A stretch of DNA of 64,000 bases from Oscillatoria nigro-viridis PCC 7112 (GTDB lineage Bacteria; Cyanobacteriota; Cyanobacteriia; Cyanobacteriales; Microcoleaceae): NCBI RefSeq assembly GCF_000317475.1, contig NC_019730.1, positions 124,001 through 188,000 on the forward strand, given 5' to 3'. The stretch's first letter is position 1; the number at the start of each line of letters is the position of its first letter. The translations under genes and the position numbers were made by a program. Shown in pieces: positions 9,906 to 29,327 of the stretch. Under the pieces are notes generated by a model. The model saw only the letters and a program-made list of their open reading frames with translations, was not told the origin of the DNA and did no database searches.

Positions 9906-10768
9906 TATGTAAGAAATCGCCAAAAAGGTTATGCAGTAATAGTTTGCCGAAAAGTTGATCAAAATAGAACTATCAGAAAATCAAACCTTTGCCAACTCGG
10001 GCTTTTGGCTGTTTCGACTGTAGACCAAGCATAGCAAGTTCGGTAGAGCCACACAATCTTCCAAGGATACTCAGATGAAATTAAAGCGCAATGTTTGAAA
10101 ATGTATGTCAACGGCATGAAATTTCGAGGTATTGAGCGCGTCACAGGAGTCCATCACACCACCGTCATTAATTGGGTCAGACAAGTAGGAGAACGCCTAC
10201 CGTCCGCCTATGACGAGCGAGACCACTCCAGAAGTGGGGGAGTTGGATGAACTAGAAACTTTTGTAGGGCAAAAAAAAATCTGGTTGTGGACAGCAGTAG
10301 ACCACTTTAAGCCAGGAATTTTAGGGTGGGTTTTGGGCGACCGAGCGTGCGAAGACCTTTGCCCCCTTGTGGGAGCTTGTAGCAACATGGAATTGTTCTT
10401 TTTATGTCACGGACGGCTGGCCAGTCTATCCAGGATTTATTCCAGATGGAGATCAGAGCCCACCGCAAGACTTACATGACCAGGGTAGAAGGTGAAAACA
10501 CACGGTTACGGCATTACGCAAGCCCGACTGCATCGCAAGACACTTTGTTATTCACTCGTCAGAGGAAATGCTGAGACACTCGATCAGATTGTTGCTACAC
10601 TACCTCAAGTTCTGGGATGTGCCAATTCCTCAATGATTCATGGCATCATTCAGCAACGCCTACCTTGTCGTTGCAATCCCCAACTTTTTTCCACTCTCGC
10701 GTCCAATAAACCAGTCTGCGAAACAGTCCTACATTTCACCACTTAATATCTGCCAGTTAAACGTCAAT

Positions 10769-12060: not shown

Positions 12061-12639
12061 TCAAATGGGATACAGCCATTTGCGAAAAAGTTGGGTGAGG
12101 CGCGGCATAATCACGTAGGTCAGCAGGGCAACCGTTAGACCTGTAACCAACAACGTTCTGAGCAATACCGGAAGCCCCGCTAGGAGTGGTACTAGCAAAC
12201 GATTGAGAATAGATATCGTAAAAAACACTGCCAGCCATGTGACGATCGCCATTTTGTAGCGCGGGGGTGGAGCCTTCATCGGCTTGTCAGGAAGCGTAAA
12301 CCAGGTTTCCAGCCCAGTCAGGGTTTGAATTGCTTCTGGCTTTTCAATTAAGGGTTGTAGTCGCTCAATCCATTCTTGCCGAATATCTGATTCAATCCAG
12401 GTTTTGAGATTGTTGTAGCAATCGAACTTGAGAATGACCACGTATTCAGGATGATCATGATCACGAGGTCGAATCGTGCTGACACCTAAATGTCCCTTGA
12501 ATTTTCGTGCATCTGCGGCGATGCCATGAAACCATGCTTCATAACCTTGTTCACGTCCTGGTCTCACGATATGAGAAATCACGGCGGTGACTAGATAGTT
12601 TTCTTGACTGGTATTGCTCGCCAATGGTTCTTCCAACAT
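12061..12639 (-). CDS. ABM-domain monooxygenase-like protein with two C-terminal membrane helices
   Basis: Residues 15-115 match the antibiotic-biosynthesis-monooxygenase (ABM) fold: VTAVISHIVRPGREQGYEAW, then GHLGVSTIRP and YVVILKFDCYNNLKTWIES. Two hydrophobic helices follow (about residues 128-148 and 152-174), placing the domain at the inner membrane, and the chain ends with a basic tail. ABM proteins oxidise quinol-like aromatics or act as small redox or signal-degrading enzymes; the actual substrate is unknown. The gene is first in a minus-strand run with the UBP and DUF5996 genes. Confidence 0.85.
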   Translation of the reverse strand: MLEEPLASNTSQENYLVTAVISHIVRPGREQGYEAWFHGIAADARKFKGHLGVSTIRPRDHDHPEYVVILKFDCYNNLKTWIESDIRQEWIERLQPLIEKPEAIQTLTGLETWFTLPDKPMKAPPPRYKMAIVTWLAVFFTISILNRLLVPLLAGLPVLLRTLLVTGLTVALLTYVIMPRLTQLFRKWLYPI

Positions 12640-12708: not shown

Positions 12709-14265
12709 CTAAAACTGAAACGTCATCCGAATAATGCCAACAAAAATCGTGTCATTATTGCTGTTGTGTTCAGGGTTGGTAATGACGATTACACCAGGAG
12801 TGATTGAGAGATGGTAGTTCATTTGAAACCGGTAGAAGATTTCAAAGTGCAATGAGGTGCTAAGATCGATTACTCCAAACTGATTGCTGATCACTCTAGG
12901 CGGTTGTCCAAAAACAAAACCTAATAAGTTTCCTTCCTTACCCAAATCTGGAAATCCAAAATTAACTGCGTAGTAAAAAATCTCAGCAGTAGGAGCATTG
13001 GAGAGGTCTTGCGCCGATGCCCGGAGATATCCTATCCATCCTCCCAATCTGAAAGCAGGGTTAACGAGCCAGGAAGCCGTAAGACTATAGCTATCCCCAA
13101 CAATGCTGGTACTGTTTCCATTAAACGGATCATTGGTAATGGCACTACTTGTACCAATATCAATCGAATTCAAAGAACGAGCATAGGTTAAGCCCAAACT
13201 TAAGGATTCTGTGGGTTTGAGTGTCAGTTGTGCTAAGGCAGAGTAAGAACCATCAAATAATCCAGCTCCCGCAGTCGGGTTGTTGGCGTTACTAGCAAGA
13301 TAAACCAGTGTCAAATTGATGGCTGAGTTAAAGTTATGGTTGATACCAACACCTGTCCCACCTGTTTCTTCACGATAGATAGGGCTACGCACCCCAAATG
13401 CGGAAATCGAACCTCTGCCATCACTTCCCAATAGAGGGTTAATCGTATCAACCACATCAAACAAAGTGCCCTGGGCGATCGCAGTCACCCTAGTATCTGA
13501 CCCGATGGGAAATTGATAATAAAGTTGATTGAGAATGAACTGATTGTCTGTATTACCATCAAAACTTAGGCGAGCCATATTGGTTCCTGTGGCTGCTCTA
13601 AAGTTTGGAATATTACCAGCCTGAAATCGAATTCTCAGTAAATCTTGCCCCGTAAAACTGGTGTCCGAGATCAACCGCGCACGACCGCTAAAAATGATAG
13701 TGTCACCGATCTCACCCCTAGAACCAGGTGTGTCTCCTGCTGGTACAGCTATATCACTACCAAATGCACCGCTCACAGCAAAAACGACCTCTCCAGTCAA
13801 TTTTGTTGTAGGGGAGAATAGCTGAGACTCTAATCGAGTTGTGCGGGTTTCTAAGGAATCTACCTGTCCACGCAATATTGAGAGTTCTGATGCAAATTCC
13901 GCTTGAAGTCTTTGTAGTGTTTGTAGATTTTCTCTTTCCGCCAGATCTACTGTTGCACTGGCTAGTAGCTGATTTAGCCGATCTAGACAAGCATTTAGCC
14001 CAGCAGCAAACTCATAACGAGTAATGGCTCGATTGCCCTGAAATAGTTGATTTGGAGAACCAACCATACAGTCGTAGCGATCGACTAAGGCTTGTAATGC
14101 TGCAAATGCCCAATCGGTAGGTTGCACATCAGCCAGTTGATTCACAGAGGTGACTTGACCTTGCAAGGTATCCTGGGCAATGGCAGACTCAACCAGGGAT
14201 GGGTGAATCAGAGAGCCTCCAAAGAGCAGACACGATGAGAGAATCGACTGAAAGAGAAGTTTCAT
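12709..14265 (-). CDS. Iron-uptake-type outer-membrane porin (SLH + OprB)
   Basis: 518 residues. An N-terminal signal peptide (MKLLFQSILSSCLLFGGSLI, cleavage near residue 30) is followed by an SLH domain (about 45-105, DVQPTDWAFAALQALVDRYD), a short coiled coil (about 108-148, LQAEFASELSILRGQVDSLE) and a carbohydrate-selective-porin-type beta barrel to the terminal FVGIIRMTFQF, which ends in the aromatic residue required for outer-membrane insertion. This is the cyanobacterial major porin family, implicated in iron and small-solute entry. It sits between the ABM-UBP-DUF5996 group and the isochorismatase genes on the same strand, with gaps that suggest its own promoter. Confidence 0.93.
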   Translation of the reverse strand: MKLLFQSILSSCLLFGGSLIHPSLVESAIAQDTLQGQVTSVNQLADVQPTDWAFAALQALVDRYDCMVGSPNQLFQGNRAITRYEFAAGLNACLDRLNQLLASATVDLAERENLQTLQRLQAEFASELSILRGQVDSLETRTTRLESQLFSPTTKLTGEVVFAVSGAFGSDIAVPAGDTPGSRGEIGDTIIFSGRARLISDTSFTGQDLLRIRFQAGNIPNFRAATGTNMARLSFDGNTDNQFILNQLYYQFPIGSDTRVTAIAQGTLFDVVDTINPLLGSDGRGSISAFGVRSPIYREETGGTGVGINHNFNSAINLTLVYLASNANNPTAGAGLFDGSYSALAQLTLKPTESLSLGLTYARSLNSIDIGTSSAITNDPFNGNSTSIVGDSYSLTASWLVNPAFRLGGWIGYLRASAQDLSNAPTAEIFYYAVNFGFPDLGKEGNLLGFVFGQPPRVISNQFGVIDLSTSLHFEIFYRFQMNYHLSITPGVIVITNPEHNSNNDTIFVGIIRMTFQF

Positions 14266-14432
14266 TGAGAATCAATCCCCTCAAAACACGGCATTTCTTG
14301 GCAATTTTCGGCAGCAGTCACCTTGGCTAGGAGCGATCGCCAGAGATCGTTCCTAGCCTCCACGAAATCATCCAGTGCTGCTTCAATGCTGCAAATGAAC
14401 TGGATCTCTGAGCAATGACAACATCTACTCAG

Positions 14433-15095
14433 TTACACACGAGTCATGAGGCGTTCACGATTGGCAGAGCCAGCATTTGATGTTGCTGCATAGCTCGTCA
14501 TTAGGTTTTTGTAGTCAGGAATAAACTCTGCAAGGAGATTACCTAGCCCTTCAATATCGTTACGCCAATCACGGTGCAATTCACAAACAACGCTAAACCA
14601 ATTGACCAACTGAGCGCCAGCACGAGACATCCGATCCCAAGCTGCATCGCGGCAGGCTTCATCGAAGGTGCCAGAGGCATCAGTGACAACAAAAACGTCA
14701 TACCCTGCCTCCAATGCTGAAAGCGCGCAAAAAGTGACACAGACATCCGTGACAATTCCGGCAATAATCAATTGCTTCTTACCCGTTGCTTCTACGGCTT
14801 TAACAAATTCCTCATTGTCCCAAGCGTTGATCTGTCCGGGGCGCGGAATGAAGGGAGCATCAGGAAACTTCTCCTTCAGTTCCGACAGGATGACTCCATT
14901 GGGACCGTCCTCAAAGCTAGTAGTCAAAACAGTAGGCAGGTTGAAAAACTTGGCTATACTTGCTAGCGCTAGGACATTATTTTTGAAGTCAGCAGCACCA
15001 ATATCCCGCACAAGCGAGAATAGTCCAGTTTGGTGATCCACCAGTAAAACCGCAGCATTATTCTTGTCTAGACGATTGTACTTGAATGTAGACAT
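14433..15095 (-). CDS. Isochorismatase-fold cysteine hydrolase (YcaC-like)
   Basis: 220 residues. The catalytic Asp20 lies in LLVDHQTGLF and the nucleophile Cys119 in GIVTDVCVTF; the cis-peptide and DASGTFDEACRDAAWDRM region are typical of the YcaC subgroup. These hydrolases act on amide or ester bonds of small molecules; the native substrate is unknown. Its 5' leader (15104-15150) is nearly identical to that of the next upstream isochorismatase gene, so the two are probably co-regulated but separately transcribed. The proteins are only distantly similar, so this is not a fresh tandem duplication of the coding part. Confidence 0.9.
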   Translation of the reverse strand: MSTFKYNRLDKNNAAVLLVDHQTGLFSLVRDIGAADFKNNVLALASIAKFFNLPTVLTTSFEDGPNGVILSELKEKFPDAPFIPRPGQINAWDNEEFVKAVEATGKKQLIIAGIVTDVCVTFCALSALEAGYDVFVVTDASGTFDEACRDAAWDRMSRAGAQLVNWFSVVCELHRDWRNDIEGLGNLLAEFIPDYKNLMTSYAATSNAGSANRERLMTRV

Positions 15096-15103
15096 TAGGT
15101 AAT

Positions 15104-15150
15104 TCTCCTATTTGAGTGATTGGTGAATGAGGAATTGCAGGATGGAATCA
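15104..15150 (-). promoter_or_regulatory. Shared leader of isochorismatase genes, copy 1
   Basis: The stretch TCTCCTATTTGAG(T/C)GATTGG, then GAATGAGGAATTGCAG, is repeated nearly base for base at 15961-16008. On the coding strand it ends with the AGGAG ribosome-binding site just upstream of the start codon. Two genes with diverged proteins but conserved leaders suggest a functional regulatory site or a shared origin by recombination. Confidence 0.55.
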
Positions 15151-15257
15151 GGGATAAGAGAGTTTCTGTCCCTAACCTGCTGTTTGTCATAGCAGGGACG
15201 AAGACTGTGTTTAGAGAGTATTTCCCTCGCTAATCTTCTGGTGGCAATGGGATTTTA

Positions 15258-15956
15258 CTATCGACCCATGAAGATGGAGGAATTGCTGACCTGGACAGGT
15301 TTGCCGTCCGCTGGAGGGGTTGTTGCAAGGAGCTGAAGTTCCCATGCAAGGGCAACCGCACTAGCACCGCCATGCTCAAGAAGAATCTCTGATACACCCG
15401 CAGATGTTTCTGTGCGTGCCCAGTCACGTTGCCATTCAGCAAGTACAGCCATCCAGTTGATTGGAACTGCACCAGCCTGAACCATCCGGCGAACCGCCAT
15501 GTCATGAGCTTCCGTAGTAACACCGCCCGAAGCATCGGTAACGATGAATACGTCATAACCTTCACCCAGCGCCTGGATTGCTGGCATTGCGAGACAAATC
15601 TCGGTCCAAAGCGCAGCAAGTATAAGTTGCTTGCGGCCACTTTTCTTCACTATATCTGTCACATTTGGATCTTCCCAGGTATTGATGAAAGTGCGGTTAA
15701 TCGGTTTTTGATCGGGAAAAACATCCTGTAGTCCCTTAATGATATAACCCCCTCTTTCTTCAATGACTGTGGTCAGGATTGTGGGTACGTTGAACACCTT
15801 TGCTGATTTGGCAAGACCAATAACATTGTTAATGATCATCGTAGGTTCATGGCTGTTCAAGTTGGTGAACTGATAGGGCTGATGGTCAATCAGTACCAGG
15901 ATGCTATCTTCTGGACGAAGCAGTCCTTCTAGACCGATTTTTTGATTTTTAGACAT
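15258..15956 (-). CDS. Isochorismatase-fold cysteine hydrolase, second gene
   Basis: 232 residues. Asp24 lies in LVLIDHQPYQF and the nucleophile Cys121 in ALWTEICLAMPA; the DASGGVTTEAHDMAVRRM region follows. It is longer at the C-terminus than the downstream paralogue and belongs to the YcaC-like hydrolase subgroup often clustered with pirin and SDR genes. The start at 15956 has AGGAG upstream within the leader described at 15961-16008. A substrate cannot be named from sequence. Confidence 0.9.
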   Translation of the reverse strand: MSKNQKIGLEGLLRPEDSILVLIDHQPYQFTNLNSHEPTMIINNVIGLAKSAKVFNVPTILTTVIEERGGYIIKGLQDVFPDQKPINRTFINTWEDPNVTDIVKKSGRKQLILAALWTEICLAMPAIQALGEGYDVFIVTDASGGVTTEAHDMAVRRMVQAGAVPINWMAVLAEWQRDWARTETSAGVSEILLEHGGASAVALAWELQLLATTPPADGKPVQVSNSSIFMGR

Positions 15957-15960
15957 TGAA

Positions 15961-16008
15961 CTCTCCTATTTGAGCGATTGGTGAATGAGGAATTGCAGAA
16001 TGAAATCA
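15961..16008 (-). promoter_or_regulatory. Shared leader of isochorismatase genes, copy 2
   Basis: Partner of 15104-15150, with the same 5'-leader sequence ending in the ribosome-binding site. Differences are single substitutions only. Confidence 0.55.
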
Positions 16009-16192
16009 AAAGCTAAACATCTCTGCTTGTGCTTTTAAATGAAACGTCTGTTTACCCTCAAGGGTTGATGACGTAAGCGATCGCGCCATGAACTGAGTCT
16101 GCAAGACAACCCCAAATTTCACCACTTAAGATCCGTGAGTTAAGCATAGAGTTAAGGTGTTCGCGTCGCGTGCCCAAAGGGCGATCGCTTCA

Positions 16193-16348
16193 CTATGAAA
16201 TTGCTCCTAATGCTTTCAACGTCGCTGCTTGAGCGTACGTTAATCCAGTTGCACCTTGAATATTCATGCCTTCAAGCATGGAACCGTGCAATTTACTTGC
16301 TCGATCCATTTGCATGACTGTTTGCACAAATTCAATATAGGGGGTCAC
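16193..16348 (-). pseudogene. 3' fragment of an unidentified gene (repeated in inverse orientation at 24.9 kb)
   Basis: An open stretch of 51 codons ends ...MNIQGATGLTYAQAATLKAL then GAIS and a stop at 16193-16195. The GANxxGxTGLT style recalls the end of pentapeptide-repeat proteins. Its middle part (IEFVQTVMQMDRASKLHGSM) is repeated almost exactly on the plus strand near 24908-24975, where the end is different. I take both as decayed copies of one gene. The rest of 16010-16440 holds only repeat-like DNA. Confidence 0.45.
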
Positions 16349-16478
16349 CTTCAAGCTGTCGCCTATAGCAAGTTAAATTTTTTACAGTGCAAATTGATAG
16401 ATTAACTGTTCCATCGCAGAGTAGAAGGCTGGCTCTAACTTAAGTTAGAATCCGAATTCGATCGAAAGTACATTCATA
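16271..16478. repeat. Inverted repeat, left arm (partner 24774-24978)
   Basis: About 200 bp matching, with substitutions and a few gaps, the reverse complement of 24774-24978. It includes the palindrome TAACTTAAGTTA, the end of the WD40 frame and the MDRASKLHGSM fragment. It flanks the WD40-kinase-regulator segment on its left side. Confidence 0.7.
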
Positions 16479-16943
16479 CAATTGATCGACCATCAATGTC
16501 TGAATGCAAAATCCGGTAGCGATGTCCCACACTTTAAGGGTGCGATCGTTACTGCTACTGATTAAAAACTGACCATCTGGGCTAAAGCTGACTGACGTGA
16601 CCCAACTGGTGTGTTCGTGCAAGACGTTCAAACAAGATCCAGTTTGCAGATTCCAGAGCCGAATAGTCCGATCGCCACTGCCACTCGCTAATAGTTGATT
16701 ATCAAGGCATACAGCAACCGACCAGATCCCACCCGTATGTCCCCGCAAGACTTTTACACTTTCACCAGTTTGTAGATTCCAGACTCGGATGGTTCGATCA
16801 AAATTACCGCTGATTAGCTGCCGATCGTGGGCTGCAAATGCTAAAGTGAAAACCCCTCCTGTATGCCCCTGCAATACATACCGACACACCCCAGTAATAC
16901 GGCTCGCCGTCAGAGTATCTCTGCCTTCCAGGCTATTTCCCAT
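16440..16943 (-). CDS. WD40-repeat protein, short (possibly C-terminal remnant)
   Basis: 167 residues with three clear WD40 repeats: GHTGGVFTLAFAAHDRQLIS...IRVWN, GHTGGIWSVAV...IRLWN and EHTSWVTSVSFSPDGQFLIS...LKVWD. Each carries the GH and WD/WN dipeptides. A closed propeller needs about seven blades, so this is either half of a dimeric propeller or the tail of a larger protein, perhaps of the kinase-WD40 type common in cyanobacteria. The gene runs divergently from the giant kinase, whose start lies about 150 bases away. The last ten residues recur in a plus-strand remnant after the response regulator (24778-24810). Confidence 0.75.
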   Translation of the reverse strand: MGNSLEGRDTLTASRITGVCRYVLQGHTGGVFTLAFAAHDRQLISGNFDRTIRVWNLQTGESVKVLRGHTGGIWSVAVCLDNQLLASGSGDRTIRLWNLQTGSCLNVLHEHTSWVTSVSFSPDGQFLISSSNDRTLKVWDIATGFCIQTLMVDQLYECTFDRIRILT

Positions 16944-17093
16944 GCCCTTGCCTCACACCAGTCTGATTGGCTACTGAGTTGAGCAATTACAAGTCAAGAT
17001 ATAAAGAGCTACACAAGGAGCTTTATAGTCTGGAGCTTGGCAAGCGATATACTTTGGGAAACGGATGACAGTCCTTTATCGAGGGAGCATTCA

Positions 17094-20000
17094 ATGATTA
17101 CCCTGCCTGGAATTACTATCCACAGCAAAATCTATGAGAGCCTAGCTTCTTTGGTGTATCGGGGCATCAGAGAGCAAAATGATTGTGCAGTGATTGTCAA
17201 AGTTCTCAAGCAGGATTATCCCTCTCCTCATGAATTAACTCGCTATCGGCAGGAGTATGAAATTACTCGTTTTCTCAACATTGAAGGCGTAGTCAAGGCA
17301 TACAGCCAACAAGACTACCAGCGCACGCTGGTTATTCTTTTGGAAGACTTTGGTGGAGAGTCTTTAGAATGCTGGATGCGGCAACAATTAGATTTCTCTC
17401 CTATGCCGCTGTCGGTTTTTTTGAATATGGCGATCGCCATTACTGATACTCTAGGCAAAATCCATGCGGCTCATGTCATCCATAAAGACATTAATCCTGG
17501 CAACATTGTCTTTAATCCGAGGACTGGCGTTGTCAAAATCATTGATTTTGGCATTGCCACTCGCTTCAGTCGCACCAATCCCACATTCAAAAGTCTCTAT
17601 CTTCTAGAAGGAACCCCCGCCTATTTGTCGCCAGAGCAAACCGGGCGAATGAACCGGATGCTCGACTATCGCACCGATTTTTATTCACTGGGTGCAACCT
17701 TCTACAAACTGTTGACGGGACAATTGCCGTTTCCCACTCAATATCTCCTGGAACTAGTCCACTGCCACATTGCTACACCGCCGATTCCCCCGCATGAATT
17801 GAATGCCACGATCCCCCAACCTGTTTCAAACCTGATTTTGAAACTGATGGCAAAGAATGCGGAGGATCGTTATCAAAGTGCCTGGGGCATCAAAGCAGAT
17901 CTAGAGCGCTGTGCCCAACAACTGGCAGAAATGGGTCAGATTAACGCCATATCGTTGGGACGGCAAGATGTTTCCGAGCAGTTCCGCATTCCTCAAAAAC
18001 TGTATGGGCGAGAAGCGGAGATTGCAGCATTATGGGTAGCGTTTGACAGAGTAGTAGGGAGTAAGGCAGTCCGTGAAATGATGCTGGTCTCTGGTTACTC
18101 TGGCATTGGCAAAACAGCATTGGTACAGGAACTCTTTAGACCAATCACCGCAAAGCACGGCTATTTTATCTGGGGTAAGTTTGACCAATTCCGACGCAAT
18201 ATTCCCTACAGCGCGATCGTCGATGCCCTGCAAAAATTGGTGCAGCAACTATTGGGCGAACCCAATGAACAGGTGGAATTGTGGCGATCGCGTCTACTCA
18301 GTGCTTTAGGAAGCAACGGACAAATTATCGTAGATGTCATCCCCGAAGTTGAATTCATTATTGGCAAGCAGCCACCTGTGCCCGAAGTTGGAGCAACAGA
18401 AGCACAGAATCGCTTCAATCTCACGTTTCAAAGGTTTGTGCGGGTGTTTTGTGCAAAAGAGCATCCCCTGGTCATCTTTTTAGACGATCTACAGTGGATC
18501 GATTCTGCAACGCTGAAGTTAATTGAACTCATATTGCTTGACGAGCAAACTCAATCCCTGTTTTTGATCGGAGCCTATCGAGATCATGAAGTATCTCCAA
18601 CGCATTCATTAATTTTGATGTTGGAGAGTTTGCGAAATCAGGGTGCAGCGATTCAAGAAATTACCCTGACTCCTTTAACGCTGGAACCGTTGACTCAACT
18701 GGTGGCTGAGACGTTACATCGCAATCCTGATGCCGTTCGTTCCTTAGCCCAAGTCGTGTTGCGTAAAACCGAGGGCAACCCTTTCTTTGTTGGTGAATTT
18801 TTGAAGCTGCTGTATGGCGAAAACCTGTTGACCTTTGATGCCCAACAGTTGAGTTGGCAGTGCAACTTAACTGAGATTGAAGCTCAAGATATCACTGCTA
18901 ATGTGGTGGAGTTGCTGCTGCGTCAGTTGCAGAAATTGCCGGAAGCAACACAGCAAATTCTCTGCATAGCCGCTTGTATCGGGGCTGAATTTGATTTAGA
19001 GACGTTAGCGATCGTTTGCGAAAAATCACCGAAAGCAATTTTCCAGGATTTATTAGAAGCAATACAAGCGGGATTAATTCAACCTCTGTCTGACTTGGAC
19101 GAAGATTTGTTAGTTCAAGAGTATAAGTTTCTGCACGATCGCGTTCAGCAAGCGGCTTATGCTTTGATTGATGAATCGCAGAAACAGGTTGTTCATCTCC
19201 AAATCGGTCGCAATTTGCTCGAAAAAACTTCACCAGAGCAACGATCCGATCGGTTGTTTGAAATCATCGATCATCTCAATCAAGGACTTGAGCTAGTCAC
19301 TGCTCAATCAGAACGAACTGAAATTGCCAGATTGAATTTAATGGCAGGTCAGAAAGCAAAGGTAGCAACGGCTTATGAAGCAGCTTTTAAGTATTTCACT
19401 ACAGGGTTTCACCTCCTCAATTCAGAGAGTTGGCAGAGTGAGTATGACCTTACCTTAGCGCTGTACTCAGAAGCAGCAGAAGCGGCGTATCTCCAGGGTC
19501 ACTTTGATGAGATGGAACAGTTGGTAGAAGTGGTACTTGATCGTGGCAAAACAGTGGTTGACAAAGTGCAGGCTTACGATAGCAGAATTCAAGGATATTT
19601 GTCACAGGGCAACCTGAAAGAAGTACTAAAAACTGGATTAGAAGCGTTAAAGTTCTTGGGAATAGATTTAATAGAAAATCCAAGTCAGGCAGATATTCAA
19701 AGGGAATTGGAGTCAACGGCTGCACTACTTGCTGAACGAGAAATCGAAGACTTGATCAATTTACCAGAGATGACTGCACCAGAACCACTGGCAGCTATGT
19801 CAATCCTAGCGAATATGGGGTCTGCTGTATTTATAACATTACCAACACTGTGGATACTGATTGTATGTAAGAGGGTAAATCTGTCAGTTAACTACGGTAG
19901 TACTACCTGGTCACCACATAGTTATGTTGCTTACGCATCTGTTCTATGTGGAGTTGTTCAAGATATTGAACTTGGTTATAAATTTGGACAACTGGCTCTC

Positions 20001-23000
20001 AGCCTGGCAGAACGATTGCATAGCAAAAAAGGAAACTCGAAAACATTAATGTTTTCGAGTTTCCATATCCTGCACTGGAAGGTGCATCTTAGGAGAACAA
20101 TAACATTTCTGGTTGATGCTTATCAAAATGCGGTGGAAACCGGAGACTTTGAATCTGCTGGTTATACTGCATATTTCGTGTGCCATAACTCATTTTTTGC
20201 TGGAGAGAAACTTACCCAACTAGAACAAAAAACAGCAACTTACAGCAAAGCGATCAACCAAATCAGACGGGAAAGCCCCTCGAATTGGCTTGCAATACTG
20301 TGGCAGACCATTCTTAATTTGCTAGATAGGTCTGAGAATCCCAGCCGCTTAGTTGGTCGGGTGTGTAATGAAGAGGAGGCATTACCACACGCCCTTGCAG
20401 TTAAAGATGGAAGTGCAATTAAAATGCTATACCTGTACAAAGTTATATTGCATTATTTATTTGAAGACTATCATCAAGCTATACAGACTGGTATTTTAGC
20501 AAGGCAACATTTTGAAGAGGTGACAGCAATAACGGTTTTACCTGTATTCTGCTTCTATCATTCTCTGGCGCTTTTGAGCCTATCGCTCGATGCTTCAAAC
20601 TCTGAAAAATTAGCTTGGCTAAACTCTGTTAACACCAACCAAGAAAAGATGCAGAAATGGGCAGAACATGCCCCAATGAATTATCTACATAAATTTTATC
20701 TAGTCGAGGCAGAGAAAGCGCGAGTCTTAGGGCAATTTCCTGATGCTGAGGAGTTTTATGAACGGGCGATCGCAGGTGCCGCTGAAAATGAGTATATCCA
20801 AGAAGAAGCATTAGCTTATGAATTAGCGGCTAAGCATTATCTGGCGCGAGGTCGAGAAAAAATTGCTCAAACCTACATGAAAGAGGCTCACTATTGCTAC
20901 GATCGCTGGGGCGCAACCGCTAAAGTCAAAGACTTAGAAACTCGCTATCCACAGTTCTTTTCTCAGTCGTCTAGAGCCGCTTCCACATCAATTCCTATTA
21001 CTGCTGAAACTATCACTAATCCCTTCCATACTGCTTTCGATTTAGCAGCAGTGATGAAAGCTTCACAGGCGATTTCTCGTGAAATTGAACTGAAGCAATT
21101 GCTGCGATCGCTGATGAAAATTTTAATTGAGAATGCTGGCGCACAAACCGGATATCTGATTTTAGAAAACTCAGGAGAATGGTTGATTGAAGCGGCTTGT
21201 GAACTCAATGCCGATGAGAATGCTTGTGCGACTCAGGTGTTACAGTCTATTCCCATTGCCGATCAATTGCCAGAGTCAATCATTCAATATGTGATTCGGA
21301 CTCTGAAGCCTGTCACCTTAAATGATGCGACTCGTGAAGGTGCTTTTATTAATGAGCCATACATTCAACAGAACCAGCCTCAATCTATTTTCTGTTTGCC
21401 GCTGCTGAATCAAGCCAAGCTGGTCGGTGTATTGTATTTAGAAAATCGGTTAGCAGTTGGAGTCTTTACACCAGAGCGATCGCAGGTCTTGCAGCTATTA
21501 TCGACTCAAGCAGCGATCGCCATCGAAAATGCCAACCTTTACTCAGAGCTGCAGGCTAAGGAAAGCAAGATTACCCAGTTCCTTGAAGCGATTCCGGTGG
21601 GAATTGCGATCGTGGATGCGGCAGGTCGCCCTTACTATATCAACCAATGCGGCAATCAACTCAGGGGCAAAGAAACAGATACTTCCATAGCACCGGAGCA
21701 GATATCAGAGGCTTATCAGCTTTATGTAGCGGGAACGGATCAAATCTATCCAGCGGAGAGCTTGCCTATTGTGCGGGCATTAAGAGGCGAACACGTTAGG
21801 ACTGAAGATATAGAAATTCGTCGAGATCAGGTCACAATTTTAATTGAGGCACGGGGAACACCCGTTTTTGATCGACAGGGCAATATCACTTATGCGATCG
21901 CTACCTTTGAGGACATTACAGAGCGCAAACAAGCCGAGAAACTGCTAGCCGACTACAACTTCACTTTAGAGCAACAGGTCGCAGAACGAACTGCTGCGTT
22001 ACGACAAAGTGAGGCCAATTACCGTAACCTGATCCAAACTGCGAATTCAATCATCCTTCGCACGGATAGGCAAGGACGAATTCGATACATGAATGACTAT
22101 GGACTGAGCTTTTTGGGCTATGAGGAAGATCAGATTCTAGGGCGTACCCTACTAGAAACAATCGTTCCAGAAACCGAAACATCTGGACGTAATCTCAAGC
22201 AGCTTGTTCACAATCTGTTTCACAATCTTGAAGATTCCTTGCCTCAAGCTTACTTGCAAACCGAGAATGAGAACCTTTGTCGAGACGGTAGACGGGTTTG
22301 GATTGCCTGGTCGAATCAAGCCATCTTCAATGAACAGGGAGAGGTCGTTGAAATCTTATCGGTTGGCAACGATACCACCCAGCGTAAACAAGCAGAAGAG
22401 GCATTACAACGCAGTGAAGCTAAGTTCAGAACGATCTTTGAAAACTCGCAGGTTGGCATCTTCCGCACCCGCCTCTCGGATGGATTACTTCTCGATGCCA
22501 ATCAATGCTATGCCAATCTGCTTGGCTTTGATTCATCAGAGGAGATGATTGGGCTTGAACACGCCACAGACTACTATGTAAATCCCAGCGATCGCCAAAA
22601 ATTCCTTGAGGTGCTGAAGCGGGATGGGGAAGTGCGAAGCTATGAAGCACAGGGGCGAAAACGAGATGGGACAGTGTTTTGGGGACTTTTCTCTGCTTAT
22701 CTGAATGCAGACGATGACTACATTGAAGGGGTGATTGCGGATATTAGCGATCGCAAGCAAGCAGAAGCCGCTCTACAAACGAGTGAAGAACGACTACGCT
22801 TAGCATTAACCGCTTCAAATCAAGGACTCTACGATCTCAATATCAAAACTGAAGAAATCGTGGTTAACCCAGGATACGCTTTAATGCTGGGCTACGATCC
22901 AGCAACATATCATGTGACCACATCTAAGTGGATTGAGAGTTTGCATCCTGACGATAGAGAATCAGTGGTTGCAGCTTACCATGCTAGTCTTACTGAAGAA

Positions 23001-24131
23001 GTCTCTAACTTTCAAGTAGAGTATCGCCGTCGTACCCAGGATGGTCAGTGGAAATGGATTTTTGATGTTGGCAAAATTGTTACCTGGAATGAATCCGGTG
23101 AACCCATCCGAGCGTTGGGAGTTTTTACGGATATCGATGATCGCAAGCAAGCAGAAGCAGCCCTACAAGCATCAGAGACAAAGCTACGGACTCTAATTGA
23201 GGCAATTCCTGATCCACTGTTTGTACTGTCTGCTGAAGGGCAATTCCTTGAAATAATCGTACAGGAGCCAAATCTGCTATGGCAGCCCTTTGAGGAGATG
23301 ATTGGTAAAACCATGCATCAACTCGGAGAGGAACAAGCCGATGAATTTCTAGGTTATATTCAGCAGGTGCTGAGAACCCAACAAATCCTTACAGTCGAGT
23401 ACAGTGCATTTTTAAATGGACGAGAAGCCTGGTTTTCAGCTCGCATTGCCCCAATCAGCCACGATCAGGTAATTTGGCTGTCGCGAGATATTACGCTGCA
23501 AAAGCAAGCAGAAGTAACCTCAATTTTAGAGGAGCGTAACCGCATGGCACGCGAAATTCACGACACACTCGCTCAGTCGTTTACAGGTATTCTGGCTCAG
23601 GTCGGAGCTGCAAACCAGGTGCTCACGGATGATGTAGAAGCAGCTCAGGCACACCTAGACCTGATCAAAGAATTGGCGCGAACTGGACTGACTGAAGCGC
23701 GGCGATCGGTCGTGGCACTCCGTCCTCAGCTTTTGGAGGAGGGCAGTTTACAGAGCGCTCTCCATCGTCTCATCGCTCAAATCAGAACTGCCGCAATGGA
23801 TGTCACTCTATATTATGAGATTGAGGGTGCAGTGTATTCTCTACCCACTGAAGTCGAGAATAACTTACTACGGATTGGGCAGGAAGCATTAACTAATGCG
23901 ATTAGATACGCCAATGCTGACGAAATTCGAGTGGAGCTAGTCTATGATCGCGATCAGTTTTGCTTGCGCGTGAGAGACAATGGACAGGGCTTTGGAGTTG
24001 GCAGTATTTCAGCCTCTGAGGGTTTTGGCTTACTCGGCATGAGCGAACGGGCTGAGCGCATCGGCGCACAACTCACGATTAGGAGTCAACCTGGACAAGG
24101 AACAGAAATTATTGTCACCGTCAACCTTTGA
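17094..24131 (+). CDS. Giant hybrid signalling kinase: Ser/Thr kinase, AAA ATPase, GAF, PAS, histidine kinase
   Basis: 2345 residues from the ATG at 17094, which has GAGGGA upstream; a TTG at 17037 would add 19 residues. Order: Ser/Thr kinase-like domain (about 5-280; IHKDINPGN near 130, DFG at 151-153); AAA ATPase (Walker A GYSGIGKT at 334-341, then LVIFLDDLQWID); a long helical TPR-like region (about 600-1290); GAF (about 1318-1485); five PAS modules (about 1492-2141), four ending in a xRKQAE-type linker; NarL-type HisKA_3 with His2156 in EIHDTLAQ; HATPase ending GFGLLGMSERAERIG. It should integrate ligand and redox cues and phosphorylate the LuxR-type regulator encoded directly after it. 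The layout resembles cyanobacterial multi-sensor kinases. Confidence 0.95.
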   Translation: MITLPGITIHSKIYESLASLVYRGIREQNDCAVIVKVLKQDYPSPHELTRYRQEYEITRFLNIEGVVKAYSQQDYQRTLVILLEDFGGESLECWMRQQLDFSPMPLSVFLNMAIAITDTLGKIHAAHVIHKDINPGNIVFNPRTGVVKIIDFGIATRFSRTNPTFKSLYLLEGTPAYLSPEQTGRMNRMLDYRTDFYSLGATFYKLLTGQLPFPTQYLLELVHCHIATPPIPPHELNATIPQPVSNLILKLMAKNAEDRYQSAWGIKADLERCAQQLAEMGQINAISLGRQDVSEQFRIPQKLYGREAEIAALWVAFDRVVGSKAVREMMLVSGYSGIGKTALVQELFRPITAKHGYFIWGKFDQFRRNIPYSAIVDALQKLVQQLLGEPNEQVELWRSRLLSALGSNGQIIVDVIPEVEFIIGKQPPVPEVGATEAQNRFNLTFQRFVRVFCAKEHPLVIFLDDLQWIDSATLKLIELILLDEQTQSLFLIGAYRDHEVSPTHSLILMLESLRNQGAAIQEITLTPLTLEPLTQLVAETLHRNPDAVRSLAQVVLRKTEGNPFFVGEFLKLLYGENLLTFDAQQLSWQCNLTEIEAQDITANVVELLLRQLQKLPEATQQILCIAACIGAEFDLETLAIVCEKSPKAIFQDLLEAIQAGLIQPLSDLDEDLLVQEYKFLHDRVQQAAYALIDESQKQVVHLQIGRNLLEKTSPEQRSDRLFEIIDHLNQGLELVTAQSERTEIARLNLMAGQKAKVATAYEAAFKYFTTGFHLLNSESWQSEYDLTLALYSEAAEAAYLQGHFDEMEQLVEVVLDRGKTVVDKVQAYDSRIQGYLSQGNLKEVLKTGLEALKFLGIDLIENPSQADIQRELESTAALLAEREIEDLINLPEMTAPEPLAAMSILANMGSAVFITLPTLWILIVCKRVNLSVNYGSTTWSPHSYVAYASVLCGVVQDIELGYKFGQLALSLAERLHSKKGNSKTLMFSSFHILHWKVHLRRTITFLVDAYQNAVETGDFESAGYTAYFVCHNSFFAGEKLTQLEQKTATYSKAINQIRRESPSNWLAILWQTILNLLDRSENPSRLVGRVCNEEEALPHALAVKDGSAIKMLYLYKVILHYLFEDYHQAIQTGILARQHFEEVTAITVLPVFCFYHSLALLSLSLDASNSEKLAWLNSVNTNQEKMQKWAEHAPMNYLHKFYLVEAEKARVLGQFPDAEEFYERAIAGAAENEYIQEEALAYELAAKHYLARGREKIAQTYMKEAHYCYDRWGATAKVKDLETRYPQFFSQSSRAASTSIPITAETITNPFHTAFDLAAVMKASQAISREIELKQLLRSLMKILIENAGAQTGYLILENSGEWLIEAACELNADENACATQVLQSIPIADQLPESIIQYVIRTLKPVTLNDATREGAFINEPYIQQNQPQSIFCLPLLNQAKLVGVLYLENRLAVGVFTPERSQVLQLLSTQAAIAIENANLYSELQAKESKITQFLEAIPVGIAIVDAAGRPYYINQCGNQLRGKETDTSIAPEQISEAYQLYVAGTDQIYPAESLPIVRALRGEHVRTEDIEIRRDQVTILIEARGTPVFDRQGNITYAIATFEDITERKQAEKLLADYNFTLEQQVAERTAALRQSEANYRNLIQTANSIILRTDRQGRIRYMNDYGLSFLGYEEDQILGRTLLETIVPETETSGRNLKQLVHNLFHNLEDSLPQAYLQTENENLCRDGRRVWIAWSNQAIFNEQGEVVEILSVGNDTTQRKQAEEALQRSEAKFRTIFENSQVGIFRTRLSDGLLLDANQCYANLLGFDSSEEMIGLEHATDYYVNPSDRQKFLEVLKRDGEVRSYEAQGRKRDGTVFWGLFSAYLNADDDYIEGVIADISDRKQAEAALQTSEERLRLALTASNQGLYDLNIKTEEIVVNPGYALMLGYDPATYHVTTSKWIESLHPDDRESVVAAYHASLTEEVSNFQVEYRRRTQDGQWKWIFDVGKIVTWNESGEPIRALGVFTDIDDRKQAEAALQASETKLRTLIEAIPDPLFVLSAEGQFLEIIVQEPNLLWQPFEEMIGKTMHQLGEEQADEFLGYIQQVLRTQQILTVEYSAFLNGREAWFSARIAPISHDQVIWLSRDITLQKQAEVTSILEERNRMAREIHDTLAQSFTGILAQVGAANQVLTDDVEAAQAHLDLIKELARTGLTEARRSVVALRPQLLEEGSLQSALHRLIAQIRTAAMDVTLYYEIEGAVYSLPTEVENNLLRIGQEALTNAIRYANADEIRVELVYDRDQFCLRVRDNGQGFGVGSISASEGFGLLGMSERAERIGAQLTIRSQPGQGTEIIVTVNL

Positions 24132-24143
24132 GTGAGCATTACA

Positions 24144-24773
24144 ATGAGCCAAGCTACGACCATTCGGGTTCTGATTGCGGACGATCACGCCATTTTTCGG
24201 CAAGGATTAGCCACGATTATTAACCGTGACCCAGATATGCAGGTGATTGCACAAGCTGAAAATGGGGAACAGGCGATCGCCGCCTTTCGGGAACACCAAC
24301 CAGATGTAACGCTAATGGATCTGCGAATGCCTGAAGTGGAAGGAGTTGCCGCCATTGGTGCAATTTGTGCGAGCGTTAAATCTGCTCGGATTATTGTACT
24401 AACCACGTATGATAGTGACGAAGATATTTATCGGGGATTGCAGGCAGGCGCAAAAGGATACCTGCTAAAAGAAACTGAACCTGACGAGCTTCTGAATGCG
24501 ATTCGCACCGTTCATCGGGGTCAGAAGTATATTCCGCCTGATGTGGGAGCAAAGTTAGTACAGCGCCTCAGCAATCCAGAACTGAGTGAAAGAGAATTAG
24601 AAGTACTCCGCTCGCTGGCACAGGGAATGAGTAATGCGGATATTGCGGCAGCTTTGAGTATTGGTGAAGGCACGGTTAAATCTCATGTCAATCGGATTTT
24701 GAATAAGTTGGATGTGAGCGATCGCACTCAAGCGGTGATTGTTGCCGTTAAGCGCGGCATTGTCAGTTTGTAG
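24144..24773 (+). CDS. NarL/LuxR family response regulator
   Basis: 209 residues from the ATG at 24144; a GTG directly abutting the kinase stop (24132) is an alternative start. The receiver domain has the acidic pocket ADDHAIFRQG, phospho-acceptor Asp59 in VTLMDLRMPE and the Lys of KGYLLKET. The C-terminal LuxR helix-turn-helix reads LSERELEVLRSLAQGMSNAD then GEGTVKSHVNRILNKL. Tight coupling (12 bases or less) to the histidine kinase gene makes it the cognate regulator. Probable targets are genes of the surrounding redox island, but no binding site can be assigned. Confidence 0.95.
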   Translation: MSQATTIRVLIADDHAIFRQGLATIINRDPDMQVIAQAENGEQAIAAFREHQPDVTLMDLRMPEVEGVAAIGAICASVKSARIIVLTTYDSDEDIYRGLQAGAKGYLLKETEPDELLNAIRTVHRGQKYIPPDVGAKLVQRLSNPELSERELEVLRSLAQGMSNADIAAALSIGEGTVKSHVNRILNKLDVSDRTQAVIVAVKRGIVSL

Positions 24774-24978
24774 GGTGTACTTTCGATCGAATTCCGATTC
24801 TAACTTAAGTTAGAGCCGGCCTTCTACTTTGCGATGGAACGATTACTCTATCAATTTCTACTGTCAAACTTTTAACTCACTATAGACGACAGCTTGAAGG
24901 CGATCTCCTATATTGAATTTATGCAAACAGTCATGCAAATGGATCGAGCAAGTAAATTGCATGGTTCTATGCTTGATG
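24774..24978. repeat. Inverted repeat, right arm (partner 16271-16478)
   Basis: On the plus strand it begins with a remnant of the WD40 gene end (CTFDRIPILT and a stop at 24778-24810). It continues with GATGGAACGATTACTCTATC-like spacer DNA and ends with the fragment YIEFMQTVMQMDRASKLHGS, whose frame runs to a stop overlapping the start of the next gene. It matches the left arm in inverse orientation. Confidence 0.7.
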
Positions 24979-24991
24979 CAGATGTAAAAAG

Positions 24992-25549
24992 ATGAGCGAC
25001 GATCGTAGCCACAGGTCTTTACTTGTACCACCTTCAACTCAAGATTGGATTCAAGGTATTCTGAGTGCCAAGGTAGTGCTGGTGATGTACGGAGATTATC
25101 AATGCCCTAGAAGTGCGGACGTTTACAAGCTGATTAAAGCGATCGAACGAGAGCTTAGTGCTGCTTTTGGAGAAGATTATTTATGCTTCATCTTCCGTCA
25201 TTTTCCACAAACACAGATTCATCCCCATGCTCAACGGGCAGCCGAAGCCGCCGAAGCCGCCGCCGCCCAAGGAAAGTTTTGGTTAATGAGCGATACCTTA
25301 TTTGACCATCAACAAAGGTTGGAGAACGGTTATCTTGTCGAGTACGCCAATGATTTAGGGCTTGACATTCCTCAATTTCTCAAAGAGTTGTCTAAACAAG
25401 TGCATGTCGATCGCATCTATGAAGATATTGAAGGCGGAATACAGAGTGGAGTGACGACTGCCCCAGCCTTGTTTATCAATGGAATTCGGTATACCGAGCG
25501 CTGGAATACGACGGGGTTGATGGCAGCCATGATTGCTGCAAATCATTAG
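24992..25549 (+). CDS. DsbA-family thioredoxin-fold protein with one active-site cysteine
   Basis: 185 residues. The thioredoxin fold is shown by VVLVMYGDYQCPRSADVYKL (active-site Cys38), FRHFPQTQIHPHAQRAAEAA and the cis-proline segment GVTTAPALFINGIRY. The second cysteine of CxxC is replaced by Ser41 (CPRS), so it is a monothiol variant that could act as an isomerase, glutathione-linked reductase or detoxification protein rather than an oxidase. There is no signal peptide, hence cytoplasmic. The start codon overlaps the stop of a decayed upstream fragment. Confidence 0.87.
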   Translation: MSDDRSHRSLLVPPSTQDWIQGILSAKVVLVMYGDYQCPRSADVYKLIKAIERELSAAFGEDYLCFIFRHFPQTQIHPHAQRAAEAAEAAAAQGKFWLMSDTLFDHQQRLENGYLVEYANDLGLDIPQFLKELSKQVHVDRIYEDIEGGIQSGVTTAPALFINGIRYTERWNTTGLMAAMIAANH

Positions 25550-25914
25550 TTCACCGATTTTTGCTTCCAATTCATATCTGACTTGCCTGTAAGTGCTATA
25601 AGTCATCTAATTTTGATGGCTAGATTTTGCCTGTTTCGCTGAAAAAAACTGTCGCTTTTTGAATCATGCCAACAACTGAATTCTTTCGTATTGATTTAGT
25701 CAATTACAAATCAGTATTTCTTTGAGGATAATTCTATGCGGCATTTATTAGTACAAGGCAAGAATAATTCTGGGCATGAAGGTACACTTCAGACTGGTTC
25801 TCTTTGCGACTCCTCAATTAATCATGCCCTGATTGCGATCGCGCAAGAAGTCACTGAGTTACTGAGACCAATTTACTTGAGAAAAACCGATAAAATTAAA
25901 ATAGGAGAAACAGA

Positions 25915-26661
25915 ATGATACTGCAAGATAAAGTGGCGTTAGTCACTGGCGGAACTTCAGGAATTGGTAGAAAAACTGCGATCGCTTATGCCCAACAACA
26001 AGCAAAGGTGGTGGTAGTTGGTCGTCGAATGGATGAAGGTGAAGAAACGGTTCGATTGATTAAGGAAGCTGGCGGAGAGGCGATTTTTGTGCAAGCAGAT
26101 GTCACAAAAGAAGCCGATGTTAAAGCAATAATTGATAAAGCGGTTGGCGTTTTTGGTCGGCTGGATATTGCCTTTAATAATGCAGGAGTGGTTGGCGAAA
26201 ATCCCTCATTGATTGAGCAAACAGAAGCGGAATATGACCGCACTATGAACGTCAATGTCAAAGGCGTTTGGTTGTCGATGAAATATGAAATTGCTCAGAT
26301 GTTGAAACACGGAAGTGGTGCGATCGTTAATATGGCATCTGCGGTTGGAGTCGTTGCACTTCCTAACATACTCGTCTACACCGCGAGTAAACATGCGGTA
26401 GTAGGCTTAACAAAAGCTGCTGCACTCCAATATGTCAAAGCGGGTATTCGCATTAATGGCGTTGCACCAGGGTCAATCCAAACAGATATGTTTAAAACAG
26501 TTACAGATGAAGCCAAAGCTTACTTGGTAGGACTTCACCCGATCGGACGAGTTGGCATACTGCTTGAAGTTGCAAATGCAGTCCTGTTTCTATCATGTGA
26601 TATGGCATCCTTCGTAACAGGTGAAACATTGATGGTAGATGGTGGGTATGTAGCGCAGTAG
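25915..26661 (+). CDS. SDR family oxidoreductase, copy 1
   Basis: 248 residues, classical SDR. NAD(P)-binding TGGTSGIG at 11-18, NNAG at 88-91, catalytic Ser142, Tyr155 and Lys159 (YTASK), and a C-terminal TGETLMVDGGYVAQ. Annotated relatives are often called glucose 1-dehydrogenase, but the substrate is not predictable. AGGAGAAACAG precedes the ATG. Two close paralogues lie at 30827 and 36338, and several SDR fragments are scattered nearby. One small oddity is Lys20 where the paralogues have Ala (GIGRKT versus GIGRAT). Confidence 0.93.
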   Translation: MILQDKVALVTGGTSGIGRKTAIAYAQQQAKVVVVGRRMDEGEETVRLIKEAGGEAIFVQADVTKEADVKAIIDKAVGVFGRLDIAFNNAGVVGENPSLIEQTEAEYDRTMNVNVKGVWLSMKYEIAQMLKHGSGAIVNMASAVGVVALPNILVYTASKHAVVGLTKAAALQYVKAGIRINGVAPGSIQTDMFKTVTDEAKAYLVGLHPIGRVGILLEVANAVLFLSCDMASFVTGETLMVDGGYVAQ

Positions 26662-26750
26662 TTGATAGGCAATGCAAAATATTGCAGTGATCGAATGCGT
26701 GATGGCTAGCTTTTGTCTGTTTTGTTGAGCAAATTGCCAATCTTTGAACC

Positions 26751-27107
26751 ATGCTAATAATTACAACGCCAACCCTTAAAGCCAAGCGTAAGGGCTTAAC
26801 GCACACTCGATTACAGCAAGTAATCGGCTATATTCGTGCTCACCTTGATCGAGATTTATCACTGACGGAACTTGCAGAAGTGATCAATATTAGCCCGACT
26901 TACTTTGCAAGTTTGTTTAAGCAAACAATGGGAATTTCTCCCCGTCAGTACGTGATTCAGCAGCGCGTGGAACAGGCAAAATTGATGCTATCGAAAACAG
27001 ATCTGGCGATCGCGGACATTGCCCTGCAAGTCGGCTTCTCCAGCCAAAGCCATTTGACGCAGCACTTCAAACGATTCACAGGAAAGACCCCCAAGCAGAT
27101 TCGTTAG
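26751..27107 (+). CDS. AraC-family regulator reduced to its DNA-binding domain
   Basis: 118 residues carrying both helix-turn-helix motifs: LSLTELAEVINISPTYFASL and IADIALQVGFSSQSHLTQHF, ending FKRFTGKTPKQIR. Full-length relatives have an N-terminal sensing domain; here only the region from GLTHTRLQQVIGYI onward is left, so it is SoxS/MarA-sized. It may be a truncated gene still able to bind DNA. No good ribosome-binding site precedes 26751. It lies directly upstream of one copy of the recurrent about 45-bp motif, and a decayed duplicate of its 3' end precedes another copy (31604). Confidence 0.85.
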   Translation: MLIITTPTLKAKRKGLTHTRLQQVIGYIRAHLDRDLSLTELAEVINISPTYFASLFKQTMGISPRQYVIQQRVEQAKLMLSKTDLAIADIALQVGFSSQSHLTQHFKRFTGKTPKQIR

Positions 27108-28142: not shown

Positions 28143-28255
28143 CGATGATTAGGCGTTTTTTGCTGAGCGAGAGAACAGCCGCTTAACTCGTGCAGCAAGG
28201 TTTTCTACTGTTTTGAATCAAGTCTATTTCATTTGCAAAACGCTTGGGAAATGAT

Positions 28256-29327
28256 ATGGAAGTTGGAATTGACAGTTTTGCCTCGGTTGGAACGAGTGAG
28301 AAGGGTGAAACGACGGATGCCGCGCAGTCTGTCGCCGAACTGCTGGAGAGAATAGAGCAGGCGGATCGTTCCGGCTTGGATATCTTCGGTATCGGCGAGC
28401 ATCATCGCCATGAATTTTTAGATTCGGCAAACGCGGTTATTCTCGCCGCTGTCGCGGCACGCACCGAGCGCATCGGCAAACGCGGTTATTCTCGCCGCTG
28501 TCGCGGCACGCACCGAGCGCATCCGTCTAACCAGCGCGGTTACGGTGCTGAGCGTGGCTGACCCGGTGCGCGTGTTTCAACAATTCGCCACGCTCGATTT
28601 GATTTCAAAAGGTCGCGCCGAAATGGTGGTCGGGCGCGGCTCGTTCACCGAAGCCTTTCCGCTATTCGGATTAAGTCTCGGCGATTACGACGAGATTTTT
28701 GCTGAAAAGCTCGAACTCTTGCTCAAAATTCGGGACAATAAAACGGTCGATTGGTCGGGCAAATTTCGCCCCGCGCTGGAAAACCAAGCGATTTATCCGC
28801 GTCCGCTGCAAAAGCCGTTTCCCATCTGGAGCGGGGTCGGCGGTACGCCGCAGTCTTTCCGCCGCGCCGGAATGCTTGGACTGCCGCTCGTGGTTGCCAT
28901 TATCGGCGGCGAAACGCATCGCTTTCGCTCGCTCGTAGATTTATACCGCGATGCCGGAGCGCGCGCCGGGTACGCGCCCGAAACATTGAAAGTTTCATTG
29001 CATTCAATCGGTTATGTCGCCGACACGACTGAACAAGCCGTTGAAGAATTTTTTCCGGGCTACGCCGAAACCTTTACTAAAATTGGCAGAGAGAGAGGCT
29101 GGCCGCCTGTTACGCGCGCCGATTTTGACGCGCAGCGCGGCGCAACCGGCGCATTACTGGTCGGCAGTCCCGAAGAAGTGGCGGAGAAAATTCGCCGTCA
29201 CAGCGAATCGCTCGGCGGCATTTCGAGAGTAACTTTTCAAATGGACAACGCGCAAATGAACCACGCCCAACTGATGCGCTCCATTGAATTGATTGGAATG
29301 CGAATGTCGCCACTCTTGAACAATTAA
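28256..29327 (+). pseudogene. LLM-class flavin-dependent oxidoreductase, frameshifted by a 49-bp duplication
   Basis: The N-terminal part (MEVGIDSFASVGTSEKGETT, FGIGEHHRHEFLDSANAVIL) and the C-terminal part (TSAVTVLSVADPVRVFQQFA, FPIWSGVGGTPQSFRRAGML) are luciferase-like monooxygenase (bacterial LLM) sequence. They are in different frames because 28424-28472 is duplicated as 28473-28521; 49 is not a multiple of three. Deleting one repeat restores a continuous protein of about 340 residues. The gene is visibly GC-richer than its neighbours (stretches like GCGCGCCGGGTACGCGCCCG), suggesting recent acquisition from a non-cyanobacterial donor. Confidence 0.85.
28424..28521. repeat. Tandem duplication, 2 x 49 bp
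   Basis: TCGGCAAACGCGGTTATTCT... begins at 28424 and again at 28473, and both copies are identical through 49 bases. It causes a +1 frameshift in the LLM oxidoreductase gene. Confidence 0.95.

Follow-up and report, generated by a model that had tools for sequence, protein, structure and literature searches.

The inverted repeats around the WD40, giant kinase and response regulator (RR) genes of Oscillatoria nigro-viridis PCC 7112 are two outward-facing copies of one noncoding region. Within the window, the 64,000-nucleotide stretch of DNA analyzed here, the left arm reproduces, in inverted orientation, the stretch that separates the RR gene from a DsbA-like gene, and this copy broke a WD40 gene near its 3′ end. 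The explanation we favor, and regard as probable, is that a target promoter of the RR was copied in inverted orientation, that isochorismatase-family genes were thereby recruited to its regulon, and that the module spread between genera.

An inverted copy of the RR–DsbA gap interrupts a WD40 gene

The genome comprises 8.27 Mb in six contigs, and the window is part of the 260-kb contig C2. A repeat search of positions 10000–32000 found one inverted pair of at least 25 nt, the two arms of Table 1, which are 201 nt each, 90% complementary and separated by 8303 nt. The first-pass annotation had placed inverted repeats of about 200 bp around this segment, and both the repeats and their coordinates, correct to within two bases, are confirmed. 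The arms align without gaps, with 20 differences and with longest identical runs of 40 and 22 nt. A search of the 8.27-Mb genome with the right arm recovered the left arm at E 1.2e-73, so the likeness is not due to chance, and a stretch of contig C1 more weakly. In all, the genome holds four arms in two orientations, two on C2 and two on C1, with otherwise short matches only. No Rfam family was found in 14000–27000 at E values up to 1, and no tRNA or tmRNA that could serve as an integration site lies within the window.

Table 1 Features of the inverted-repeat locus; positions are those of the window unless a locus is named
Feature	Position	Strand	Remarks
Right arm	24776–24976	+	Promoter-like region between RR and DsbA, source-type copy; begins 2 bp past RR stop
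Left arm	16272–16472	−	Inverted copy within WD40 gene, directed at isochorismatase-family genes
Palindrome, right arm	24799–24814	+	7-2-7, TCTAACT-TA-AGTTAGA; operator candidate
Same palindrome, left arm	16434–16449	−	7-2-7
Half-site-like TTTAACT	24871–24877	+	8 bp upstream of −35; left counterpart 16371–16377; putative role
−35 and −10, right arm	24886–24914	+	ACGACA, 17 bp, TATATT
−35 and −10, left arm	16334–16362	−	GCGACA, 17 bp, TATATT
Sensor kinase	17037–24131	+	Ser/Thr kinase, AAA, GAF, PAS, HisKA_3, HATPase (Pfam)
NarL/LuxR-type RR	24132–24773	+	Response_reg and GerE (domain search)
DsbA-like thioredoxin gene	24992–25549	+	Downstream of right arm
WD40 gene fragment	16473–16943	−	Before left arm; ORF 16440–16943 ends inside arm
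Severed WD40 3′ end	16193–16271	−	GMNIQGATGLTYAQAATLKALGAIS*; match to WD40 C-termini
Isochorismatase-family gene	15258–15956	−	Downstream of left arm
Second isochorismatase-family gene	14433–15095	−	Same direction
C1 arm copies	L007:14819–15150 and L008:5971–6230		Direct repeats about 11 kb apart

The right arm fills the gap between the RR and DsbA-like genes, and the copied stretch starts 2 bp past the RR stop and ends 15 bp short of the DsbA start. On the minus strand, the WD40 open reading frame runs through ...VDQLYE into the left arm and stops after CTFDRIRILT, and the severed end beyond the arm (GMNIQGATGL...LKALGAIS) corresponds to the C-terminus of WD40 proteins that in relatives are about 1200 to 1500 residues long, a match present in 18 of 29 genomes, its own counted. 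Because the WD40 frame enters the arm and the WD40 tail lies past it, the arm interrupts the gene near its 3′ end. The peptide CTFDRIPILT, previously read as the end of the WD40 gene, does not belong to the WD40 protein; it arises where the interrupted WD40 frame of the left copy reads into the first part of the arm. Likewise, MDRASKLHGSM, previously described as a gene fragment, is the translated part of the arm downstream of the −10 box and no piece of a known gene. The earlier suggestion of an inverted duplication whose second WD40 gene was lost is partly right: there was an inverted duplication, no WD40 gene was lost on the right, and both direction and contents differ, with the promoter region copied from the RR–DsbA gap into the WD40 gene.

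The tetranucleotide TGAA flanks the left copy on both sides, and three of these nucleotides also occur at the source end; our guess is that the copy may have arisen by templated insertion during break repair. Flanking TGAA and four genomic copies in two orientations would also fit a small MITE-like transposable element inserted at both places, yet the arm ends, TGTACTTTCG and ...CATGCTTGA, are not complementary and form no terminal inverted repeats, the left copies have one common junction in WD40, the other copies lie after RR or before DsbA with different 5′ ends, and the window genome has only short matches beyond its four arms. We therefore consider a transposable element highly improbable.

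The left arm ends 316 bp from the isochorismatase-family gene on C2. Directly upstream of the two isochorismatase-family genes, the 50-bp stretches 15101–15150 and 15959–16008 are 92% identical, which suggests a tandem duplication that included the leaders. Short WD40 C-terminal remnants also lie between genes elsewhere in this genome and in relatives (L030:6390–6560, on C1 near 324462, L029 and L027); those in L030 and L029 adjoin isochorismatase-family genes, and arm searches found no arm there.

Putative promoter elements of the arms

Each arm looks like a promoter region in its sequence. In the 8.27-Mb genome the pattern TCYAACTNNAGTTRGA is matched exactly four times, once per arm; with one mismatch there are 12 further sites, and 16 sites per strand compare with 6 for the same pattern reversed as a control. 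All four arms have inverted heptamers with 2-bp spacing, and in the C1 palindromes both sides change together (TCCAACT..AGTTGGA). Across the arms surveyed, the palindrome is perfect in 63 of the 122 arms counted (48, 13 and 2 of three types), and most imperfect arms carry a one-sided change, to AGTTATA in 53 arms. The −10 box is TATATT in 113 of the 125 arms read there, and the −35 core is CGACA in 85/125 and CGACG in 31/125. A pattern of CGAC(A/G), spacer and TA box fits 115 of 126 arms, and the spacer is 17 bp in all 115. A promoter scan yielded roughly the number of promoter-like sites given by shuffled sequences (2 vs 2.0 and 2 vs 1.1). With about 115 bp between it and the putative start downstream, the palindrome is remote for a simple activator site, and the predicted RNA fold of the right-arm part downstream of the −10 box is not striking (z −1.36).

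A 24-codon open reading frame at 24921–24995, MQTVMQMDRASKLHGSMLDADVKR, starts about 6 nt past the −10 box and ends in a stop codon that shares the sequence ATGA with the DsbA start codon. It is possibly a leaderless leader peptide, not kept in all arms: its start is GTG in 9 of 13 left arms and ATT in one, and several right arms stop early. We therefore treat it as a side note.

The putative promoter elements are intact in the left copy. Across the 13 left arms, change is lowest in palindrome, −35 and −10, where 3 of 364 cells depart from the left consensus; elsewhere in the arm, 115 of 2110 cells do (Fisher p 1.3e-5, in a test that counts related sequences as independent, on elements chosen partly for their conservation and with the half-site, changed in 3/91 cells, excluded). 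This pattern argues against the left arm being hitch-hiking debris, a functionless duplicate merely carried along with the module, as do loci L070 and L138, which have lost the WD40 tail, have about 55 bp between arm and isochorismatase gene, and have kept the promoter. Debris would agree with the decay of the WD40 pieces in most loci, with an arm identity above that of the WD40 tail in only 21 of 36 pairs (nine loci), and with the spacer between left arm and isochorismatase gene, whose conservation exceeds that of the arm in 5 of 6 pairs from four loci. This last result indicates that the left arms resemble one another partly through recent transfer. Weighing both sides, we judge debris unlikely and retain the reading of a functional promoter copy.

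Conservation of the arm was also compared with four-fold-degenerate sites of the adjoining RR gene, a comparison confined to the 35 arms that follow RR genes readable whole as 213 codons. Arm identity exceeds four-fold-site identity in 29 of the 34 comparisons with the window (mean 0.846 vs 0.736; C1 paralogue included), and the arm is the more conserved in 86% of all 595 pairs. Among close RR genes (four-fold identity 0.8–0.9) the arm is no more conserved (0.838 vs 0.839).

The same putative promoter sequence stands before unrelated genes within one genome, namely DsbA and isochorismatase on C2, and cupin and DsbA on C1. At the C1 paralogous kinase–RR locus, the stretch after the RR gene is 67% identical to the right arm and is followed by remnants of the start and end of DsbA and then by the cupin gene; a second arm copy, in direct orientation about 11 kb on, precedes an intact DsbA gene. 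Comparison with this paralogue makes ATG at 17094 the likelier start of the window kinase. The RR and DsbA genes also occur together in relatives, about 200 bp apart in G045, 0.6 kb apart in G004 and 1.1 kb apart in G023. The arm profile found no arm in these three loci or in four further related loci to which it was applied, which shows that not every RR–DsbA locus has this promoter sequence. The RR–DsbA gap of G045 contains CGACA, 17 bp and TAAATT; the palindrome is absent. Elsewhere in the window, a perfect 49-bp tandem duplication (28424–28521) lies where a luciferase-like monooxygenase gene splits into two frames, 28244–28561 and 28545–29327; the homologues in L070 and L080 are single 344-residue open reading frames.

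Orientation, distribution and probable transfer of the module

Relatives were surveyed from a DsbA search of named genomes with two DsbA proteins; the best 80 of 141 relatives were taken, and the frequencies given here apply to those 80. With the arm profile cut off at 60 bits, which removed 6 of 132 matches, every one of the 80 DsbA loci contains at least one arm (one in 41, two in 37, three in one and four in one), though not always next to DsbA. A second, inverted arm lies to the left of the kinase in 11 of the 80 (L070, L072, L073, L074, L080, L083, L084, L094, L106, L125 and L138). Their hosts are Nodosilinea, Oculatella, Drouetiella, Tildeniella, Myxacorys, Symplocastrum, Phormidium and two unclassified strains, with L073 and L106 belonging to one genome. 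The closed plasmid of Gloeocapsopsis dulcis AAB1 has the inverted pair too, with an annotated 149-codon WD40 gene at the same place. Together with this plasmid and the window, the inverted-pair loci number 13. The G. dulcis genome was assembled from long and short reads, and the main text of its report mentions none of DsbA, isochorismatase or response regulator (PMC10516996).

WD40 remnants, very short in some loci, precede the left arm in 12 of the 13 and a WD40 tail follows it in 10; the tail-less loci L070, L106 and L138 have a common junction at the far end of the arm. These common breakpoints point to a single copying event. The gene that follows the left arm is of the isochorismatase family in 8 of 13 loci, L138 and L149 among them, with 96–99% identity to the product of the window in L070, L072, L094 and L125 and 49% in L084. 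Other genes follow in L073, L074, L080, L083 and L106, azoreductase-like in the first two. Twelve further arms show the direct order RR, arm, isochorismatase with no WD40 tail, and in 11 of them the product is 42–44% identical to that of the window. Two arm arrangements stand apart. In Chamaesiphon polymorphus (L124:4267–9986), four direct arm copies lie within about 6 kb, the last before DsbA. On plasmid pNSMS102 of Nostoc sp. MS1 (L152:12419–20225), the arm after the RR gene is split in two, with profile positions 1–50 at 12419–12468, positions 44–162 at 20107–20225, and TnsA-like, transposase and ATP-binding genes between them, an arrangement that looks like the insertion of a Tn7-like element, with a short duplication, into the promoter arm.

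The first-pass annotation had proposed that the 8.7-kb segment could invert by recombination between the arms and so change its outside context, and the arrangement does have the right geometry, 90% identity and a 40-nt identical run that could recombine. Comparison of gene order in relatives gives this no support: the arms face outward in one orientation in 13/13 loci, and junctions of the inverted form (WD40 end, arm and DsbA, or RR end, arm and WD40 tail) occur in none of 130 arms in 85 loci, a count that omits L152 with its split arm. Left and right arms are no more alike within a locus than between loci (0.866 vs 0.867; 12 loci), with mean identities of 0.911 among left arms and 0.853 among right arms in the same loci. 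The left arm of the window is 95% identical to that of L094 and 94% to that of G. dulcis, as against 90% to its own right arm. Its closest arm is the right arm of L072 (96%), a locus whose own arms are unusually similar (0.949). Exchange between arms in that locus would explain this likeness, as would descent of the left arms from that right-arm type. In a tree of 24 arms, left and right arms do not separate cleanly (5 changes each; counts as low in 8 and 11 of 500 shuffles); the tree has few supported forks, and left arms group with a subset of right arms. In L149, the 20 annotated features that surround the segment include no recombinase. Moreover, both arms point outward with the same elements, so that after a flip each outside operon would keep an equivalent promoter, contrary to the altered context once expected. 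Inversion of the kinase–RR segment is therefore unsupported, and we give an invertible segment very little credence.

Arm DNA is absent from 58 related genomes, 28 of them of the same genus, in a DNA search; in the loci compared, the RR is 90–99% identical to RRs of distant families, as against 78% for the C1 paralogue; and RR genes with an arm occur on plasmids of Gloeocapsopsis, Trichormus, Chroococcidiopsis and Nostoc. These three observations point to movement of the module between cyanobacteria by horizontal transfer. We had also entertained a recent insertion of the left arm private to the window genome, and rejected it because the same junction is found in other families; the copying event must then be old, and the module was probably transferred.

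Proposed copied target promoters and known systems

In the explanation we favor, each arm would be a target promoter region of the regulator encoded between the arms. The RR, a NarL-type protein with Response_reg and GerE domains, would bind the 7-2-7 palindrome, as suggested by the 7-2-7 sites of NarL, and activate the promoter. A single old copying event would have brought the isochorismatase-family genes beyond the left arm under this control as well, such that one sensor–regulator pair drives two divergent operons, and the copy may have been retained for this dual control and spread with the module. As to the signal, the genes downstream hint at redox or electrophile detoxification. A wider reading, which we offer tentatively and hold to be doubtful, makes the arm a regulator-linked propagating promoter: about 200 bp of noncoding DNA that carries the RR operator and is copied repeatedly as a cassette before detoxification genes; the regulon would grow by promoter copying and move between cyanobacteria on plasmids with sensor and regulator, and the inverted pair would be one frozen step. 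Repeated arm copies are seen at two places on C2, at two on C1 and four times in one 20-kb locus, L124.

A supposed invertible segment becomes a traceable example of how a regulon may recruit genes, since the copied promoter, the insertion site in a broken gene and debris-free forms are all visible in living relatives. It yields a candidate operator for an uncharacterized giant dual kinase and its NarL-type regulator. With one regulator, repeated target promoters and natural replicates, it may also serve as a test system for whether copying of operator and promoter expands bacterial regulons. The half-site TCTAACT departs from the consensus for NarL of E. coli. That protein binds inverted heptamers in a 7-2-7 arrangement, and the arm palindrome resembles its operators in having 7-bp inverted elements with 2-bp spacing near a NarL/LuxR-type regulator gene (PMC7419079). 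The candidate operator lies farther from the inferred start than they do.

A single protein in the window combines Ser/Thr kinase, GAF, His-kinase and ATPase domains (Pfam). In this it resembles HstK and cbSTKIII, which have an N-terminal Ser/Thr kinase, GAF and histidine kinase domains, and it differs from them in its several PAS domains, HisKA_3-type kinase and linked NarL-type RR (PMC2176072). Ava_C0117 of the same survey is probably the plasmid C relative found here in L150.

The copying itself has parallels among systems that rearrange or move regulatory DNA. Invertible DNA switches have inverted repeats around a segment; the window shares these and shows neither an alternative orientation nor recombinant arms. 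Putative mobile promoters, and promoter propagation, were reportedly described by Matus-Garcia et al. in 2012. As with such promoters, copying the arm elsewhere would give a different gene a ready-made promoter (PMC9208149). Unlike them, the arm copy carries the candidate operator of the regulator that it flanks and faces away from, and it lies within an interrupted gene; the copy is found across families together with the entire module, and no insertion sequence was seen at it. Horizontal regulatory transfer, as described by Oren et al. (2014), rewires expression through the movement of noncoding regulatory DNA; there one intergenic region replaces another, whereas the arm was added as a copy at a new site, and here regulator and targets move together (PMC5890482). 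Searches of open-licence papers found no account of this module or of a comparable promoter copy in cyanobacteria. Copied promoters are already known, and a mirror-image copy beside its own regulator, spreading with it, would be an undescribed variant of them as far as that literature shows.
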